Of a stretch of 57,842 bases of DNA, positions 10,728 through 24,314 are shown piece after piece. Each line of letters opens with the position of its first letter. Positions within the stretch are counted from its first letter, which is position 1. A program made the position numbers and the translations under genes. The notes beneath the pieces are model-generated. The model ran no database searches. It had not been told where the DNA came from and saw only the letters and a program-made list of their open reading frames with translations. Origin of the DNA: Candidatus Bathyarchaeota archaeon (lineage in GTDB: Archaea; Thermoproteota; Bathyarchaeia; Bathyarchaeales; SOJC01); NCBI GenBank assembly GCA_029882535.1, contig JAOUKM010000001.1, positions 110,037-167,878 of the forward strand, written 5' to 3'.

Positions 10728-11429
10728 ATGTTTGAAATAGTTATTCTTATGAGCACCTTGTCAATCTTCACTTTGAGTGCTGCAATTTTATACAGTAAAC
10801 GCATAAATGAAGCTCACAATAAGTATGTAGAGGCTAAGAACGTTGTTGATGACATTATTGTGAGTTTTAATAGGCAGCTGCAAAAGCAGGAAGACCGGGT
10901 TGAGACTTCTACTCACAAAGTCAACGTTCTTTTTACTCATGATGAACTTTTTGCTGAAAGACTGGAAAATCAAGAAAAAAAGGTTCAGGCGCTTGTGGAT
11001 AGAGTGGAGTCTTTCTCTTATCTAGAAAAGGCGACAACAAGAATTGATGTTTTGGAAAATAAGCTGGGCGAAGTTACGTCAATGAAAGGTACTTTGTTAA
11101 AGAAAATTGCTGAAATCGAGAAACAACGGCTTCACCGAAAAGATTCTGCAGCAGAAATTGAATCTGCAATTCCAATAAAACGAGAAAGAGTATTGGCACC
11201 GTTAACTGCAACTGAGCTTACGGTTCTTGAATTTCTCGCCGTTGAAGGCGAAAAGACCGCACCGGAAATAAAGGAGCAAATAAAACTTAGCAGGGAACAC
11301 ACAGCGCGGTTAATGAAAAAACTTTATGAAAAGGGGTATTTAGAACGTAGCGCAAACAAAATTCCTTTTACATACCGCCTAAACGAAGAGATGCAGAAAA
11401 TTCTGAAGAAACCGGAGCAAAAAAGCTAG
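10728..11429 (+). CDS. Membrane-anchored winged-helix protein with coiled coil
   Basis: A 233-residue protein in three parts. Residues 3-23 form one transmembrane helix. Residues 25-140 are a long charged coiled coil (heptad-like runs including KQEDRVETSTHKVNVL and VLENKLGEVTSMK). Residues 160-228 are a winged helix (LTATELTVLEFLAVEGEKTA, recognition-helix region LSREHTARLMKKLYEKGYL). Such domain order suggests a DNA-binding regulator tethered to the membrane. The spacer upstream holds several TGTGACGTCACA-like palindromes, which could be its own sites. Partner signals are unknown. Its end overlaps the end of herA by 4 nt, convergently. Confidence 0.8.
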   Translation: MFEIVILMSTLSIFTLSAAILYSKRINEAHNKYVEAKNVVDDIIVSFNRQLQKQEDRVETSTHKVNVLFTHDELFAERLENQEKKVQALVDRVESFSYLEKATTRIDVLENKLGEVTSMKGTLLKKIAEIEKQRLHRKDSAAEIESAIPIKRERVLAPLTATELTVLEFLAVEGEKTAPEIKEQIKLSREHTARLMKKLYEKGYLERSANKIPFTYRLNEEMQKILKKPEQKS

Positions 11430-12964
11430 CTGATGCCGAGATTTTTACCTGCGTTTTGTAGCCGCTTCAGATTTTCGTCCATTACATCAAGAGTCTTAGA
11501 TGGTGAAAGGTTGTAGTTCACTTTTTCTCGGGTATCCAAGTATTCGGGGTAGTGCGTCACTTTCACTGGAACGGCAAATCGAATCTTCGGCTCAGATATT
11601 AATAATGCTTCGCCGATGTCAAGCATTTTCACCTCTGTGTCGCTGTATTCGAGATATGGCGTATTTCTAGTGAGGTAGTCCCTGTCGGTCTTCAACTCGG
11701 TTTTCATGATGACTTTGGTCCAAAGTTCTGCAAACACGTCAGGGTTAATTCGAGAAGGCCGCGGTGACACCGCGTTTAATCCTACACGATATTTTCGGTA
11801 CATCAAGGCGATGGCAGAGAAAATTGTCCTTTCTTTGCTTGGGTCTAGAAACTCGTGGGCCTCTTCAAGCGTTATCAACAACGTAGGGAGTCTCTGCCAT
11901 TCTTCATATTTTTCTTCCCACATGTGTTTGTAATGGTTTGCTACACCTGATGCTGTTAAACAAACGACGCGGTGTTGCTCCTCAGCGGTGATTCCAGAAA
12001 TATCAATAAGACATGTGATTCCTTGACTTATGTTTTCAATAGTATCATCAATAAAGCTATACCTAGAAGGAGGAAAAAGTCTTGGATCTAAAGACAGGAG
12101 CTTCCGCATAAAAGCATCAATCGTTTCTCTATGCGCACTAGCTATCTTTGCTACACCAGCACGTCCATTCAGCTCATATTCTTCACATGATTTTTCAATC
12201 CATTGTTCTCCAAGCTGCCCATACAGCTTCCTAGCAAAACGATATTGATGAGGACTAATATCAGAATACAGACTACGCAGCTTCCAAGGTCGCAGTGTTC
12301 GAAGCCCGACACGTAGTTTTTCCTCTTTTGTGCTGTAAAAACGTACCCTACTATGAAAAAGCGGGTGGTTGCACAAGCCCTTGTGGCTCAGCTCCTTTCC
12401 TTCTAGCAATTGCCCGGCGAAGTCAAAAATTAATCCTGCAGTTTTTGGGCTTTGGTCGATTAATTGTGCGTTTATTAGTAATTCCGTGTTGGTTTTTCCA
12501 GAGCCTGTCATGCCGAACATGCCCATCATCCGTGGTACAGCGCTGATGTTTATGCCTACAGAGCCAAGTGATTGCCCTCCAGAGCGTAGATGCCCTATTT
12601 CCAGCTCTCCTGCAAGTTTCAACACGGTAGAGTCTTCTGTGGTTGTTGGGTATACTTTGTCCATATAGTTAGGATTGAAAGTGGGAGACCGAGTTTTTCC
12701 AGCTTTTCTTTCAAGAAAGAGAATTGCTTCGATGTTCTTGTAGCAAGAGTACGGGCCAAATGTTTCTTTTCCCTCTGCTTCGCGAAGTTGCTCACCAGCA
12801 TCTAAGGTAGACTTGCTTTGAGCATTCACAACCCTAGCATAAAAACTACTGTCACCAGAGTCTACGCGAACTATCTGCCCAAAAGAGAGGCTAATATTTT
12901 TGTTTAGGAAAAAGGAAATCTTGTCGCCTTTTACCTCGCATATTGAACCTAAATGGCTAGACAT
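11426..12964 (-). CDS. herA: HerA-like DNA translocase/helicase
   Basis: HerA is a hexameric ATPase that works with the nuclease NurA in DNA end resection. An N-terminal HAS-barrel-like region (residues 1-100) precedes the ATPase core, with Walker A GMFGMTGSGKTNTELL and Walker B LPTLLITLEEAHEFLDP. The frame is open upstream to 13120. I place the start at ATG 12964 because the extra 52 residues are antisense-like overlap with nurA and the 12964 start gives a conventional 8-nt overlap with the nurA stop. That makes 512 residues, usual for HerA. It is translationally coupled to nurA. Confidence 0.9.
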   Translation of the reverse strand: MSSHLGSICEVKGDKISFFLNKNISLSFGQIVRVDSGDSSFYARVVNAQSKSTLDAGEQLREAEGKETFGPYSCYKNIEAILFLERKAGKTRSPTFNPNYMDKVYPTTTEDSTVLKLAGELEIGHLRSGGQSLGSVGINISAVPRMMGMFGMTGSGKTNTELLINAQLIDQSPKTAGLIFDFAGQLLEGKELSHKGLCNHPLFHSRVRFYSTKEEKLRVGLRTLRPWKLRSLYSDISPHQYRFARKLYGQLGEQWIEKSCEEYELNGRAGVAKIASAHRETIDAFMRKLLSLDPRLFPPSRYSFIDDTIENISQGITCLIDISGITAEEQHRVVCLTASGVANHYKHMWEEKYEEWQRLPTLLITLEEAHEFLDPSKERTIFSAIALMYRKYRVGLNAVSPRPSRINPDVFAELWTKVIMKTELKTDRDYLTRNTPYLEYSDTEVKMLDIGEALLISEPKIRFAVPVKVTHYPEYLDTREKVNYNLSPSKTLDVMDENLKRLQNAGKNLGIS

Positions 12965-13943
12965 GTTCAATCCACTCCAAATTAAAAGCGTATTTTGCCC
13001 CGTGAAGCTCATCCGCGAAATTGCAGGCAAGCTCCTCTTGGCGAAGTACATCAAGAAGCCCAACGCTCGCCAATTCCTCTTCAACTTGGACATGATATTG
13101 AAGCAGTTTGGCCTCAGCAACGCCTGAGAAGTCGTGTGCCAGCCACAACACCACAGGATAACCTAAACAGCGAGGATCTTCAGAAATTGTAGAAAGAGGC
13201 GAAAGCAGCGAAGGGATATCTTGGCTGGTTAAATAGCCCATTATGTCACACCGAAAAGCTCGTGGACTGTCCTCACACAACCTAACGATAGATACGTCGC
13301 CGTAAAGGTGGCCGTGAATGCTAGCTTTTTTGACCGGGTAGTAAACCCAGCACCCTTGAGGCGTAATCATGCACATCGCAGCAATAAGGTCATGGCCCTT
13401 GTCGTCATGGAGCATAGGAGACTGCTTGCTTATGGCAAGTAGCTTTATTCCTTTTTTCTCACATTTTTCGTAAAGCATGGCGTTAAATTTTCTTTCGCCG
13501 CCAAAGTAGCTTGCACCATCTAGAAGTATGTAGTCGTTTTCGTTTGCTTTATTGAGTAATCCTAAGGCCATCTCACTCTCTAGTTGAAGTCGTATTTCTT
13601 GCAGAATTTTGCGACGTACATAGGAATCTCCTCTAATTGTTTGAACTCTCTCTTTAAAGCTCCAGTCCACGTTACGGTTTCTGACAGTGGCAGATGAGAC
13701 TCGAAAGACATATACACCCCAGTTGTTTGCCCTCTTCAAGGTCCTAGTTGAACAGTCCACCGCGAAGAAATGTACGTCACAACTCTTCATCCTCGTAAGG
13801 GGAGCAATCTTAGCTGGAGTTAGTTTGACGGCTATAGACGGCTCATCCTTTACATCTTTAAAACTAACCATGCAACCTTTTTCAACGTAATTTCTCAATA
13901 TTTCCTTCATCTCGTTAAAATCTGCTTGCAACTCTTTATTCAT
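12957..13943 (-). CDS. nurA: NurA 5'-3' nuclease
   Basis: NurA is the nuclease partner of HerA in resecting DNA double-strand breaks. The RNase-H-like NurA domain is visible: the first catalytic Asp in FFAVDCSTRTLKRANNWG, a second acidic site in YILLDGASYFGGE, the LLAISKQSPML strand, and the terminal block YPVVLWLAHDFSGVAEAKLL. The length of 328 residues is normal. It precedes herA with an 8-nt overlap. The usual neighbours mre11 and rad50 are not adjacent here. The start is ATG 13943. Confidence 0.9.
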   Translation of the reverse strand: MNKELQADFNEMKEILRNYVEKGCMVSFKDVKDEPSIAVKLTPAKIAPLTRMKSCDVHFFAVDCSTRTLKRANNWGVYVFRVSSATVRNRNVDWSFKERVQTIRGDSYVRRKILQEIRLQLESEMALGLLNKANENDYILLDGASYFGGERKFNAMLYEKCEKKGIKLLAISKQSPMLHDDKGHDLIAAMCMITPQGCWVYYPVKKASIHGHLYGDVSIVRLCEDSPRAFRCDIMGYLTSQDIPSLLSPLSTISEDPRCLGYPVVLWLAHDFSGVAEAKLLQYHVQVEEELASVGLLDVLRQEELACNFADELHGAKYAFNLEWIEHV

Positions 13944-14014
13944 CCACTACGCTCCTGCATTCTTTAGAGTTTAAGATTGTAAATGTAGCGTAAATCTTTT
14001 TGCAATAGCTTTAC

Positions 14015-14446
14015 TTATTTATCTTCTCCAATCTTTATGGTGCTTTGCGCCAATTCTGTCATCATCCGATATTTCCTGTTATTAGCTGGCCCTCTTCTTA
14101 AAAGAAAACTACGGTCGGCCATTCTTGCCAAATATGTAGAGGCTGTGCTGAGCGATATAGGTTCATTAAATTCTTGTTCATATGTCGCGAGAACTTCCTT
14201 AGAAGAAAACCATGTAAAAGGAAAATGTTTTTCAACAATAGATTTGATCTTGTCATATTTTGAAGCCTTGGACACACTACGGTTTAATTCTTGTTTGTCA
14301 TGTGCGCCGCCAAGCAACTCAACAATATCAAGCAAACACAAAGCCTTTTTCCTAGTAACTTTACCCTCAAAAGCTATAGTGTAACGATTGCCTTCTTCAT
14401 CAAAGACTTCCATACGTATTTTCTTTGCAGGCATCGTACACACCAT
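14015..14446 (-). CDS. Small winged-helix DNA-binding protein
   Basis: A 143-residue protein. The N-terminal third (KKIRMEVFDEEGNRYTIAFEG) looks like a small beta-rich module. The C-terminal 80 residues form a winged helix, with FSSKEVLATYEQEF, the recognition helix ISLSTASTYLARMADRSFL and the wing RRGPANNRKYRM. I do not know its family name. It lies upstream of and in line with nurA-herA, and its 5' end faces the replication origin, so a role in that operon or at the origin is possible but unproven. A second ATG at 14434 may be the true start. Confidence 0.65.
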   Translation of the reverse strand: MVCTMPAKKIRMEVFDEEGNRYTIAFEGKVTRKKALCLLDIVELLGGAHDKQELNRSVSKASKYDKIKSIVEKHFPFTWFSSKEVLATYEQEFNEPISLSTASTYLARMADRSFLLRRGPANNRKYRMMTELAQSTIKIGEDK

Positions 14447-14629
14447 AACAGAAGCCTTAACACTTTACACTTCACAAGTTATTAGCTGTTATGATGGGGC
14501 AACCTAAAAAAATAAGCAAAAAATGGCGGCGTATATTGATAAGGGCTTCTTTCTGCAAATATTTTGATTTAACAGTGTTCACAAACTATTTCTTCAACGA
14601 ACAATGGAAAAGGCGTAATAGTTTCTATA

Positions 14630-14651
14630 TTTCCAAAGGAAACGTAGGGGT
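14630..14651 (+). promoter_or_regulatory. ORB-like element 1
   Basis: TTTCC-AAA-GGAAA dyad followed by CGTAGGGGT. This matches the archaeal origin recognition box plan of an imperfect dyad with GGAAAC and a G-string to its right. Confidence 0.75.
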
Positions 14652-14775
14652 CTTCTATTCACTGTGAAATAGGCAAAAATACCCAAAAAAAATCAAAAAT
14701 ATTTGCTAAAAGTTCCACGATAAATTAAATTTTACAAATGCTTCACAAAATGACAGTGGCGTATATCTTCACCAA

Positions 14776-14797
14776 CCCCTGTATTTCCACTGCAAAA
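14776..14797 (-). promoter_or_regulatory. ORB-like element 2 (inverted)
   Basis: Read on the minus strand: TTTTGCAGTGGAAATACAGGGG, with the dyad and trailing G-string. It is inverted relative to the other three and sits at the left edge of the AT-rich core. Confidence 0.7.
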
Positions 14798-14971
14798 CCT
14801 AAAAGTAGATCAATATTGTTAGTTCATATTTTAGGTATAGTATTTAAAAATAAACAAGTGTTTCACTCGAAATGTTTGTAGCAATAATAATAAAGTTAGT
14901 TTTTTAGGTTAAGCCTTTAGAGTATATTTCTATAAGAAAGAAATGCCATCATTTCTTTTTAAATAATAGAG

Positions 14972-14993
14972 TTTCTATTAGAAACCGAGGGGT
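14972..14993 (+). promoter_or_regulatory. ORB-like element 3
   Basis: TTTCTATTAGAAACCGAGGGGT: a TTTCTATTAGAAA dyad followed by the G-string, with a further GGGG at 15001. It marks the right edge of the AT-rich core. Confidence 0.78.
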
Positions 14994-15120
14994 GTGTGTA
15001 GGGGCTACTTTTGAAATGGGTTAACACCTTTTCATTTCTTTAAACATATGCCTCAACATTACACCTTCTGTTTTTGAGTTGTATAGTAACTCTTTGTTTT
15101 TTTGTAGGAGAGTGTTTATC

Positions 15121-15144
15121 TTCTCCAGTTGAAACCAAGGCTCT
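15121..15144 (+). promoter_or_regulatory. ORB-like element 4
   Basis: The core CTCCAGTTGAAACCAAGG (15123-15140) is very close to the ORB/mini-ORB consensus. It lies 33 nt upstream of the orc1/cdc6 ATG, so initiator binding here could also repress its own gene. Confidence 0.78.
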
Positions 15145-15176
15145 ACAAGTGCGTTTGCTGAAGGGAGAAAATTACT

Positions 15177-16427
15177 ATGGAAAAAAAAGTGGACATACTT
15201 GATGCTGTTTTTGAGCGCTTTTTAAGCAACACTCATTTTTTTAGAGATAGAGATGTACTTCGCCATGATTACATTCCAGAAAAACTGCCTCACCGCGAAG
15301 ACCAGATAAGATACTTGGGAATGATAGCTGCTCCGCTTTTGAAAACAGAGAGATGTTCAAATGTTTTTATTTATGGAAAAACAGGAACCGGAAAAACTGC
15401 TGTTATGAGGTATGTGCTAAATCGCTTATCACAAAAAGCAGCAGAATTTAGTGTACCAGTTAAAATAGCATATGTAAATTGTCGCTTAGCAGGAACAGAA
15501 TATAGGGTTTTTACAAGCTTATGTGCTGCTTTAGATATTACTGTGCCCTTTACTGGTCTTGCGGTTGGTGAAGTTTTTGATCGCTTTAAAAAAGGATTGG
15601 AAAAGCGAAAACTGTCATTTATTGTTGTCTTGGATGAGCTTGACGAGTTAATTAAAGCTAGAGGCGACGTGCTTTTATATGAGCTGACAAGAGTAAATGA
15701 GTCTCTCAGTAATAGCAAAGTCTCTATTGTTGGAATTTCGAACGATTTGCGTTTTAAAGAGTTGTTGGAGCCGCGTGTTTTGAGTTCCCTAAGCGAAGAG
15801 GAGGTTGTGTTTAAACCTTATGATGCTTCTGAGCTTCAAGATATTTTATGGGAACGGGCAGAGTTAGCATTCTATAAAGATGTGTTGCTTGAGGGTGCAG
15901 TAAGCTTATGTGCGGCTTTGGCTGCTGCAGAACATGGGGATGCAAGACGTGCACTTGACTTGTTGCGTGTGGCTGGTGAGGTGGCTGAGAGGGAGAATGC
16001 AAAGGTAATTTCTGAAGATCACGTTAGAGAGGCTGAGAAGCGAATCGAGCATGATAGAATAATTGATGCTTTAACAAATTTGACACCACACTCAAAATTT
16101 GTACTCTACAGCATATACCTCCTTGGAAAAGCCAACATTTACTCCGCTATCACTGGCGATATATATGAGGTATATGCTGAACTGTGTAAAGAAATCGGGG
16201 CTTCACCGTTGACACAGAGGCGGGTGAGCGGGCTTATAAATGAGCTTGACGCAATCGGGTTGCTAAATGCAAGAGTCGTAAGTAGAGGCCGCTACGGTCG
16301 CACAAAAAAGATTAGCCTCGCAATACCGCGGACACCGTTTAACGAAGTGTACGCAAACGATGACCACTTGGGACGGCTAATTCATTTTACACCAAAATGT
16401 TTGAAACTAAAACTCGGCAAAAACTAG
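15177..16427 (+). CDS. cdc6: Orc1/Cdc6 replication initiator
   Basis: This AAA+ initiator binds ORB elements and loads MCM. In the 416-residue protein, Walker A is YGKTGTGKTAVMR (about residues 65-77), Walker B is FIVVLDELDEL and sensor 1 is VSIVGISND. The C-terminal third is the winged helix (PLTQRRVSGLINELDAIGLL) that contacts DNA. The length is normal. It directly follows the origin. Its stop overlaps the convergent DP1 stop by 4 nt. It is the only initiator gene in the window. Confidence 0.95.
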   Translation: MEKKVDILDAVFERFLSNTHFFRDRDVLRHDYIPEKLPHREDQIRYLGMIAAPLLKTERCSNVFIYGKTGTGKTAVMRYVLNRLSQKAAEFSVPVKIAYVNCRLAGTEYRVFTSLCAALDITVPFTGLAVGEVFDRFKKGLEKRKLSFIVVLDELDELIKARGDVLLYELTRVNESLSNSKVSIVGISNDLRFKELLEPRVLSSLSEEEVVFKPYDASELQDILWERAELAFYKDVLLEGAVSLCAALAAAEHGDARRALDLLRVAGEVAERENAKVISEDHVREAEKRIEHDRIIDALTNLTPHSKFVLYSIYLLGKANIYSAITGDIYEVYAELCKEIGASPLTQRRVSGLINELDAIGLLNARVVSRGRYGRTKKISLAIPRTPFNEVYANDDHLGRLIHFTPKCLKLKLGKN

Positions 16428-20706: not shown

Positions 20707-20904
20707 TCTAGATGACTACTGCTTTTGAACGATATTTACGGTCAACAATGATGTTGTGCAGAGTACATATAAAATAAACAAGTTGCCGTCTATAAACACA
20801 ATAACGGCGTCCACGTTGTTGACGTTTTTAACCTTATTTGTGTCAGAAAGCCCAAAATACACTTCTGTAATTGCATTTACTAGGTGAGCTTTTTGGGCGT
20901 CAAG

Positions 20905-22179
20905 ATGAGCACGGAATATGGGCAATATGCAAAATCCCTTGAAAACAAACTGCAGAGACTCTACACGATTGCCGAGAAGGCGCGAGAGAAAGGATTAGAC
21001 CCTACACTGGGCCCAGAGTCAGAAGTTGCAAAAGACCTTGCCGAACTTGTGGAAGGTCTGGTAGGACCCGCTGGTGTTGCAAAAGGCATAAGGGAACTAG
21101 CCGAAAAACTTCCCCGCGAAGAACTTGCTTTTAAAATCGCCGAAGAGATCGTTTACGGTAAGTTTAGCCACATGGAAACTCAAACTGTCGCAGAACAAGC
21201 CGTTCGCACCTCCCTCGCCATACTAACCGAGGGAATCACAGCTGCTCCTCTTCAAGGAGTGGCAAAGGTATCCATAAAAACCAACTTTGACAAGACAAAG
21301 TATTTGGCTATATACTACGCAGGGCCTATTCGGTCCGCTGGAGGCACCGATCAAGCGTTAACGCTTGTCATTGGCGACTTTGTACGTAGCCTTCTCGGCT
21401 TGGACCGTTACAAACCTACAGAGGAAGAAATCAACCGGTTTATCGAAGAAATGCGGCTTTACGAGCGAAATGTGGGTCGGTTCCAATATCACGTCACTGA
21501 TGCGCAGCTTCAAATGGCTATTGAGTCAATACCTATCGAGGTAACAGGTACAGAGTCTGACCCCGTTGAAGTGCAGTCTTTCCGCAATTTGCCGAGAATA
21601 GAGACAAACTGCGTTCGCGGGGGAGCTCTGCGTGTAGTAAATGATGGTGTGATAGGTCGGGCAGCAAAGGTCGTCACCATTGTTGAAAAAATAGGCATTG
21701 AAGGTTGGGATTGGCTGAAACACATAGGTGGAGCATGTGGGGCTCAAGATAAGAAAAAGACTGCTGGCTTTATGGAAGACATAATTGCCGGGCGCCCCAT
21801 TTTTTCATTTCCTTCGCAACCAGGTGGTTTTCGTCTTCGCTACGGGCGGGCAAGAAACACTGGTTTGGCTGCTGTCGGGGTGCATCCCTTAACAATGATA
21901 GTTCTAAATCAATTCCTTGCTGGGGGCACACAGATTCGCTTAGAGTTGCCTGGTAAAGGAGGGGTGGTCATGCCTGTAGACTCTATTGAACCGCCTACTG
22001 TATTGTTGAAAGACGGCTCAGTGACCCATGTTTCAAGACAAAACTTCATTCAAATAAAAAATAAAATTGACAAGATTCTTTTTCTAGGCGACCTACTCAT
22101 TAGTTCGGCGATTTCTTATACAACAATAAAAAGCTTCGTCCTTCAGGATATACAGAAGAATGGTGGAGCGAGGAACTAA
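20905..22179 (+). CDS. dp2: DNA polymerase D large subunit DP2, N-terminal part (frameshifted)
   Basis: The first 400 residues or so of DP2, the catalytic subunit of PolD. Typical blocks are seen: YYAGPIRSAGGTDQALTLV, MRLYERNVGRFQYHVTD, VRGGALRVVNDGVIG and HIGGACGAQDKKKT. After GDLLIS the reading goes wrong. The expected continuation FGDFLYNNKK appears in the frame beginning at 22104, so one base is missing in a T run at 22104-22105. The frame then ends falsely at 22179. The open frame begins with GTG 20884, but ATG 20905 gives MSTEYGQYAK, the likelier start. With the base restored, DP2 would have about 1136 residues, a normal intein-free length. Confidence 0.92.
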   Translation: MSTEYGQYAKSLENKLQRLYTIAEKAREKGLDPTLGPESEVAKDLAELVEGLVGPAGVAKGIRELAEKLPREELAFKIAEEIVYGKFSHMETQTVAEQAVRTSLAILTEGITAAPLQGVAKVSIKTNFDKTKYLAIYYAGPIRSAGGTDQALTLVIGDFVRSLLGLDRYKPTEEEINRFIEEMRLYERNVGRFQYHVTDAQLQMAIESIPIEVTGTESDPVEVQSFRNLPRIETNCVRGGALRVVNDGVIGRAAKVVTIVEKIGIEGWDWLKHIGGACGAQDKKKTAGFMEDIIAGRPIFSFPSQPGGFRLRYGRARNTGLAAVGVHPLTMIVLNQFLAGGTQIRLELPGKGGVVMPVDSIEPPTVLLKDGSVTHVSRQNFIQIKNKIDKILFLGDLLISSAISYTTIKSFVLQDIQKNGGARN

Positions 22180-22259
22180 AATCATCAATAACACAACACT
22201 TCAACGGCAACATTGAGGAAGCAGCAACAACAGCAAATGTTTCGGCGCAACGCTTAGAA

Positions 22260-24314
22260 ATGTTCCTTTCGCACCCCTTTCACAACAAACCAGACGCTAG
22301 AGAAGCCATTGCAATAGCCAAAAAACTCAATGTCCCTCTTCATCCACACTATAGTTTCTTTTGGTCTAAAATAACAACCGAAGAATTGCAAAAACTACGC
22401 CAATGGTTACTCAATTCTCAGGCTCAAAAAGAGGACGAACATATTTCAAAGATCACCGGTAAACTAAACACCACATTGAAGAAAATACTAGAACATTTAT
22501 GCCTTCCTCACAAAGTTGCTGAGAACCAAATAGTCATTGAAGACGATGAAGCTTTTGTCTTGGCTACCTGCCTTGGTCTTGATTTACCAACAGCAAAAGT
22601 GGATATTACGACTTCTCCTTTCGAGGCTCTAAAAAGTCTTTCCAGCATCATTGTTCGGGCAAAGGCGCTTACCACCATAGGAGCACGTATGGGTAGACCT
22701 GAGAAGGCAAAAAGGCGGGAAATGAGGCCTCGTGTCCACTTCCTCTTCCCTGTAGGATTGGCTGGTGGCCCAAAGCGCAATTTGATTGTGGCTGCGCAAA
22801 AAGGGCCAATTCACGTAGACTTGGTGAATCGGCGTTGTCCAAAGTGTCAAGAGCTAACTTTTAGAACTAAATGTCCTTCATGCCACATTGAAACGGTTCT
22901 TGAGACAACTTGTCCGCGGTGTGGTAGAAAAGTTGATGAAGATGTTTGTCCCGCTTGCAAAATCCCTGCTTCTGGTTTTCAACGACAAAAGCTCGACCTA
23001 AAAGCCATGATTTCTGATGCTTGTCACCAGTTAGAGGTTAACCCACCTGAGCTTGTTAAGGGAGTGAAAGGATTGTCAAACGAACACAAGGCCGCTGAAA
23101 TTGTTGAGAAGGGGATTCTCCGTGCTAGGGAAGATTTGTCTGTTTATAAAGATGGAACGATACGGTTTGATGCCACAAACGCCCCGCTAACACACTTCAA
23201 ACCTGTTGAAGTCAAAGTTTCTGTGGAGAAACTTAAGCAGTTAGGCTACGCTGTGGGCTTCCAAGGTAAGCCTCTGACTAGTGAAGAGCAAATTTGCGAA
23301 TTGAAAGTGCAAGACATTGTTATTCCACGAAAGAACGCAACGTATTTTGTTCGCGTGGCAAACTTTATTGACCGACTTCTAGAAAAGGTCTACAAGCTTC
23401 CAAGATATTACAACGTGAAGCAAGCTGAAGACTTGGTTGGCCGTCTTGTCATTGGTTTGGCCCCTCACACGTCTGTGGGCATTTTAGGTCGTATTATAGG
23501 ATTCACTGACCTTGATGTTTGCTATGCCCATCCATTGTGGCATTCTGCGAAGCGGCGTGATTGTGATGGAGATGAAGATGCTTTGATGCTTGCTCTTGAT
23601 ACCTTGCTAAACTTTTCAAGAGCTTACCTTCCTTCTCAAATTGGCGGTATAATGGATGCGCCTCTCTTCCTAATTCCAATTGTTAATCCAGCTGAGGTGC
23701 AGCGGCAGGCGCATGAGTTTGACATTGCTGGCCAGTATCCTTTAGATTTTTACGAAAAGACGTTAGAAAAAGCTGCTCCTTTGAAAGCGACGAACCTTGT
23801 TGATTTGGTTGCGCACAAGTTGGGAACCGAAGCGCAGTTTGAGGGTTTTGGCTATACAACTCCCGTTTCGAACATTAACATGGGAAATCGTGAAAGCATG
23901 TATAAGAAGCTTAGGAAGATGACCGACAAGCTAAACAGTCAATTAGAGCTTGCGGAAAAAATTGAAGCTGTTGACGCCAAACAGGTAGCTTTGAAAGTAT
24001 TAACGACCCATTTTCTCAAAGACATCTCGGGAAACCTCCGTGCATTCTCAACTCAAGGCTTTCGCTGTAAAGTGTGCAACAAACGTTTCCGGCGTATACC
24101 GCTTAAAGGAAAGTGTCCAGAATGCGGAGGAACCTTATCATTGACAGTGTACCGTGGCGGAATCGAAAAATATCTGAATGCTGCACGGCACCTTGTTGAA
24201 AAGTATGAATTACCCAAATATTATCTTCACCGTCTCGCGTTGGTGCAGGAAGAGGTCAATACTCTGTTTGAAGGTAAGAAGCCCCGGCAGATAAGCCTTG
24301 TAGACTTTGCCTAA
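22260..24314 (+). CDS. dp2: DNA polymerase D large subunit DP2, C-terminal part (frameshifted)
   Basis: The catalytic portion of DP2. The first Met in this frame is at 22260, but homologous sequence in the same frame runs from 22104 (PSGYTEEWW, then EELKSSITQHF). It therefore continues the upstream fragment rather than starting anew. The double-psi beta-barrel active site is intact, with SAKRRDCDGDEDALML supplying the three Asp. Zinc-finger cysteines are in RRCPKCQELTFRTKCPSC, TTCPRCGRK and, near the end, CKVCNKRF with CPECGG. No intein is present. A single lost base is more likely a sequence error than a real split, because PolD should be essential. Confidence 0.92.
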   Translation: MFLSHPFHNKPDAREAIAIAKKLNVPLHPHYSFFWSKITTEELQKLRQWLLNSQAQKEDEHISKITGKLNTTLKKILEHLCLPHKVAENQIVIEDDEAFVLATCLGLDLPTAKVDITTSPFEALKSLSSIIVRAKALTTIGARMGRPEKAKRREMRPRVHFLFPVGLAGGPKRNLIVAAQKGPIHVDLVNRRCPKCQELTFRTKCPSCHIETVLETTCPRCGRKVDEDVCPACKIPASGFQRQKLDLKAMISDACHQLEVNPPELVKGVKGLSNEHKAAEIVEKGILRAREDLSVYKDGTIRFDATNAPLTHFKPVEVKVSVEKLKQLGYAVGFQGKPLTSEEQICELKVQDIVIPRKNATYFVRVANFIDRLLEKVYKLPRYYNVKQAEDLVGRLVIGLAPHTSVGILGRIIGFTDLDVCYAHPLWHSAKRRDCDGDEDALMLALDTLLNFSRAYLPSQIGGIMDAPLFLIPIVNPAEVQRQAHEFDIAGQYPLDFYEKTLEKAAPLKATNLVDLVAHKLGTEAQFEGFGYTTPVSNINMGNRESMYKKLRKMTDKLNSQLELAEKIEAVDAKQVALKVLTTHFLKDISGNLRAFSTQGFRCKVCNKRFRRIPLKGKCPECGGTLSLTVYRGGIEKYLNAARHLVEKYELPKYYLHRLALVQEEVNTLFEGKKPRQISLVDFA

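Follow-up and report, generated by a model that had tools for sequence, protein, structure and literature searches.

The window analysed here, a 57,842-nt stretch of DNA, corresponds to positions 110037-167878 of contig C1 in a 1.73-Mb Bathyarchaeia genome (83 contigs, 97.5% complete). It carries an orc1/cdc6 initiator gene, which is separated by a 730-bp intergenic region from a divergent 143-aa ORF (14015-14446, minus strand) with no Pfam family. NurA and HerA are encoded to the left of the orc1 locus, and PolD small subunit DP1, Elf1 and PolD large subunit DP2 to the right; the neighbouring replication genes DP1, DP2, NurA and HerA were counted in favour of reading the locus as a replication origin. 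The HerA and NurA genes fall, beside the 143-aa ORF, within window 11426-14446. DP2 (window 20884-24314) is present as two ORFs, 20884-22179 and 22260-24314, with an apparent frameshift close to the end of the first that is either genuine or an artefact of assembly. The features of the intergenic region are listed in Table 1.

Table 1. Features of the orc1 locus, in window coordinates.
Feature	Position	Strand	Sequence or size	Remarks
ORB box A (outer)	14630..14654	+	TTTCCAAAGGAAACGTAGGGGTCTT	30.6 bits; 0 mismatches to the pattern, own genome
ORB box B (inner, inverted)	14772..14796	-	TTTGCAGTGGAAATACAGGGGTTGG	31.0 bits; inverted orientation conserved
AT-rich core, candidate DNA unwinding element (DUE)	14797..14971		175 bp, 23% GC	between B and C
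R1, first copy of direct repeat	14918..14930	+	TAGAGTATATTTC	inside the core
Palindrome/hairpin region after R1	14926..14958			inverted-repeat peak, co-varying arms, fold
Palindrome part	14926..14944		ATTTCTATAAGAAAGAAAT	
Palindrome part	14937..14958		AAAGAAATG-CCAT-CATTTCTTT	
R2, second copy of direct repeat	14967..14975	+	TAGAGTTTC	abuts/overlaps the DUE side of C
ORB box C (inner)	14972..14996	+	TTTCTATTAGAAACCGAGGGGTGTG	27.5 bits; conserved
TATA-like element, inferred orc1 core promoter	15113..15121	+	GTTTATCTT (also given as TTTATCTT)	conserved in the family f1 alignment and beyond
Box D, weak ORB-like element, candidate orc1 operator	15122..15146	+		13.0 bits
orc1/cdc6 initiator gene, Orc1-1 type	15177..16427	+	416 aa	Pfam Cdc6_lid + Cdc6_C

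Boxes were scored with an ORB matrix seeded with the published common motif of Ori-Finder 2 (PMC4164010), whose consensus reads TCCA[CG]T[TG]GAAA[TC][GA]AAGGGGT; the matrix was trained on 97 boxes from 30 other genomes, with the genome under study held out, and scanned over the whole window. A preliminary description of the sequence had placed four ORB-like boxes upstream of orc1, and these four proved to be the best matches in the window, in the order B, A, C, D, with the next best at 10.5 bits. A, B and C fit the matrix and stand as ORBs, whereas D fits it in part and does not stand as a full ORB: it scores low, ends in GGCT without the GGGG string and forms a separate element. The G-strings of the inner pair, B and C, do point outward around the AT-rich stretch, as first described. 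With at most one mismatch, the strict ORB pattern TTCCANNRGAAAYNNAGGGGT occurs in the 1.73-Mb genome at A, B and C only, and the remaining matches, with two or three mismatches, do not stand out from a reversed-pattern control.

The best PDB match of the orc1 product is 2qby_A, Sulfolobus Orc1-1 (Cdc6-1) (E = 8e-115), followed by 2v1u, Aeropyrum pernix Orc1 (E = 6e-107); judged from these matches, the initiator encoded beside the boxes is Orc1-1-like. Homologs of orc1 were present in 61/61 genomes of the first search, with two or more in most. Contig C20 of the genome under study encodes another, distant Orc (29% identity, nearest solved structure 1fnn). A second origin at this paralog was considered and rejected, as contig C20 is without ORBs and none was found at one mismatch or fewer elsewhere in the genome. 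One relative (L044; CP070765.1, bin257) has a truncated second orc1 copy, 77% identical to that of the window over residues 167-410, near which no ORB cluster was seen.

Box D lies directly 3' of the conserved TATA-like GTTTATCTT, and its position, at -42 to -64 of orc1, is conserved in a subset of relatives. If GTTTATCTT is the TATA box, D reaches the likely transcription start, where bound Orc1 would obstruct the promoter; Orc1 at D would probably repress its own gene. Autoregulation of orc1 through D is plausible. The location of D within the core promoter would also suit a purely transcriptional role for all of the boxes: they would form a promoter region through which Orc1 regulates orc1 and the divergent gene, and the active origin would lie elsewhere. 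Thermococcus kodakarensis provides a precedent, as it is reported to replicate in the absence of Cdc6 and of its presumed origin (PMC5663688).

Box conservation bears directly on this alternative. The arrangement A(+)B(-)C(+) was found upstream of the orthologous orc1 in 29/29 close relatives, counting those with complete upstream sequence, and among 46 further Bathyarchaeia loci all three boxes were present in 36, two in 7 and none in 3. Conservation of the boxes among relatives, which the preliminary description had proposed as a check on its origin call, is thereby borne out. The loci L193 and L194 (family f22) and L196 (family f24) have an orc1 ortholog with no recognisable ORBs upstream, and were counted against the origin reading; a relocated origin or a diverged ORB may account for these. 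Several other Thermoproteota families have a comparable box layout, and in a Sulfolobus-like family (f39, L217) the inner pair lies at -276(-) and -128(+) with G-strings outward. Across 30 loci the B-C core measures 113-214 bp, with a GC content of 19-38% in 29 of them. In the complete genome of a relative (G002, 1.84 Mb), scanned after removal of its own boxes from the matrix, A, B and C were the three best matches and D the fifth, the others being scattered. A transcriptional role alone accounts poorly for an inverted spacing around an AT-rich core that is kept class-wide several hundred bp from the start codon, and for the lack of any other ORB cluster in the window's own genome or in G002.

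Base-composition skew was examined on the contig and in G002. On the 167.9-kb contig, detrended cumulative GC skew reaches its lowest point at position 124840 (window 14804), inside the core; the largest GC-skew step on the contig is at 125000, at 20-kb and 40-kb flanks alike, and the MK step with 20-kb flanks is lowest at 124800. The GC-skew inflection anticipated at this locus was thus recovered on its own contig, and the step again argues against purely transcriptional boxes. Agreement in G002 was partial: the MK-disparity maximum is ~4 kb away from orc1, and with 60-kb flanks the MK step at the orc1 locus falls in the lowest 0.1%, whereas the global GC-skew minimum lies elsewhere, at 1.746 Mb, which counts against the origin reading and for an active origin at another site. 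Because gene orientation also switches at the locus, skew was taken as supporting evidence and not as proof, and the match on the contig itself may partly reflect the divergent gene orientation here.

Taking together the boxes, their orientation and conservation in relatives, the adjacent Orc1-1 type gene and the local skew change, we conclude that the locus is very probably the chromosomal replication origin, of oriC1 type, of this Bathyarchaeia genome, as initially proposed; that the boxes serve transcription alone is very unlikely. By analogy with Sulfolobus, Aeropyrum and Haloarcula, Orc1-1 from the adjoining gene would bind A, B and C, and the inverted B/C pair with its outward G-strings would position MCM on the AT-rich core. 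The core would then melt and replication proceed bidirectionally.

The preliminary description had treated the core as an AT-rich stretch and missed a conserved element within it. A GGAGTATATT-like element, R1, lies ~43 bp before C and is followed by a palindrome. A motif search of the core alone returned ACC(T)TT-n-(G/A)GAGTATATT at a near-fixed distance from C, with a log-likelihood of 92-196 (widths 12-24) against 29-71 for shuffled sequence. R1 was found in 60/64 loci, in most of which its end lies 43 +/- 4 bp before C, and in G002 the top-scoring R1 genome-wide is the origin copy. The scanned region has its highest inverted-repeat score at -49 to -21 of C (6.07 vs 4.21 shuffled, t = 7.0), and the palindrome region folds with z of -3.2 and -2.8 on the two strands. 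We rejected R1 as a TATA box in general, since variants such as GAGGCTATT and GACGGCTCTT are not TATA-like while the position is kept. A known structured RNA in the core was likewise rejected, with no Rfam match.

The letters of R1 vary between loci, and the variant is repeated next to C: GAGTATATTTTC occurs twice in L013, AGACGGCTC in L014, GAGGCTCT in L026, GAGACTTATT in L039, GAAGCTATTC in L158 and TTGGGGGATT in L199. One copy of this direct repeat thus abuts the inner ORB (R2), and the other is found further inward at a flexible spacing, mostly 41-54 bp, followed by the palindrome. The pair in the window itself (TAGAGTATATTTC, TAGAGTTTC) is among the weaker ones. R1 and R2 match better within than between species (6.08 vs 3.84, z 14.3), and the arms of the palindrome also co-vary (z 10.5). 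Shared ancestry is not wholly eliminated by these permutation tests; its influence is lessened when shuffling is confined to families, and the values then still stand at z 9.6 for R1-R2 and z 7.5 for the arms. Column by column, coupling extends from about -8 to +1 of C (~10 bp), with absolute values inflated by setting the register on the best match. It ends at the edge of the ORB dyad, and R1/R2 as part of a larger ORB duplication was rejected on this ground. A skeleton, G-A-G-n-n-T-n-T-T, is kept in the repeat. No equivalent repeat was found on the other strand, as a mirror, at boxes A or B, or in control intervals outside the core, and the B flank was not coupled to the core. In L203, from another Thermoproteota group (family f32), GAGGAGTATAATTTC-like letters stand beside box B and not near C; this may be an R-like element outside Bathyarchaeia in another place.

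That repeat and palindrome change together across the class suggests a further component of the origin. We put at about even chance that R1 and R2 are two sites of one accessory origin factor whose specificity drifts, which would act in a role like that of Sulfolobus ucm and its binding protein UBP or of the haloarchaeal enhancer repeat. Somewhat short of even, we consider the whole to be an undescribed bathyarchaeal core element, a ~10-bp direct repeat plus palindrome in which selection acts on copy identity and self-complementarity and leaves the letters free to drift. If so, it would point to a fast-evolving accessory initiator or to a structure-based opening step.

R1, palindrome and R2 could also act through DNA structure and not through a protein, a slipped or hairpin form keeping the core open after melting or placing the first primers, with selection on copy identity and self-complementarity and not on letters. 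Co-variation of repeat copies and palindrome arms despite changing letters, the confinement of coupling to ~10 bp, the flexible R1-R2 spacing and the strand folds (z -2.8 to -3.2) are all consistent with this, but the stems are short and AT-rich and the kept skeleton argues that letters are recognised as well, and we regard this explanation as rather unlikely. Alternatively, the likeness of R1 and R2 could be functionless, a product of mutational homogenisation through template switching where short direct repeats adjoin a palindrome. Palindromes with short repeats on their flanks are known hot spots of such switching, and coupling is seen also among closely related species. This explanation is nonetheless improbable given the near-constant position of R1 before C, the kept skeleton and the control intervals, which are without such a repeat. 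We therefore rank sites of an accessory factor first, at roughly even probability, a DNA structure as a less likely second and non-functional homogenisation as a still less likely third.

A class-wide origin map would supply a marker from which growth rates could be estimated in metagenomes, as well as a base for building shuttle vectors, and the co-varying core element is a testable lead on archaeal origin opening, a step that is still poorly understood. We found no bathyarchaeal replication origin in the open-access papers searched; an element of the R1/palindrome/R2 type was likewise not found in the descriptions of archaeal origins among them.

Among characterised origins, oriC1 of Haloarcula hispanica has two inverted ORBs, whose G-strings are essential, on either side of an AT-rich core (PMC3936714), and shares with the present locus the outward orientation of those strings. 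Its accessory repeat, inside the ORBs, is an enhancer (PMC3936714). The haloarchaeal repeat is G-rich and inverted, with one arm inside each ORB, whereas here a direct repeat and an AT-rich palindrome are found on the C side only; a haloarchaeal-type G-rich inverted repeat just inside both ORBs was not found in this core. Ori1 of Aeropyrum pernix, whose Orc1 is close in sequence (2v1u), resembles the locus in having four ORBs with an AT-rich stretch between the second and third (PMC8287685), but at the present locus the fourth box scores weakly and is close to the promoter, and the descriptions of Ori1 consulted give no R1/R2 element.

The Sulfolobus/Saccharolobus oriC1 is similar in its adjacent Orc1-1 gene, its ORBs with G-string, its inverted inner pair around an AT-rich core, its one further box and its conserved core element (PMC12141716). 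In Sulfolobus, Orc1-1 has a defined polarity on the ORBs it binds, the DUE is where MCM is placed, and each inner ORB is individually required for firing (PMC12141716). The bathyarchaeal locus differs in its third box, which is placed outward of B and distal to orc1, and in size: the core alone is 175 bp, as against 130 bp for the entire ORB3-DUE-ORB2 of Sulfolobus. The 11-bp ucm stands midway in the DUE, whereas R1 is ~43 bp from C, the comparison being one of position only. The protein that binds ucm, UBP, was assigned only in 2025. UBP has 329 ChIP peaks, whereas the origin R1 is the best in all of G002, and the conserved core element here, unlike that of Sulfolobus, is a co-varying direct repeat.
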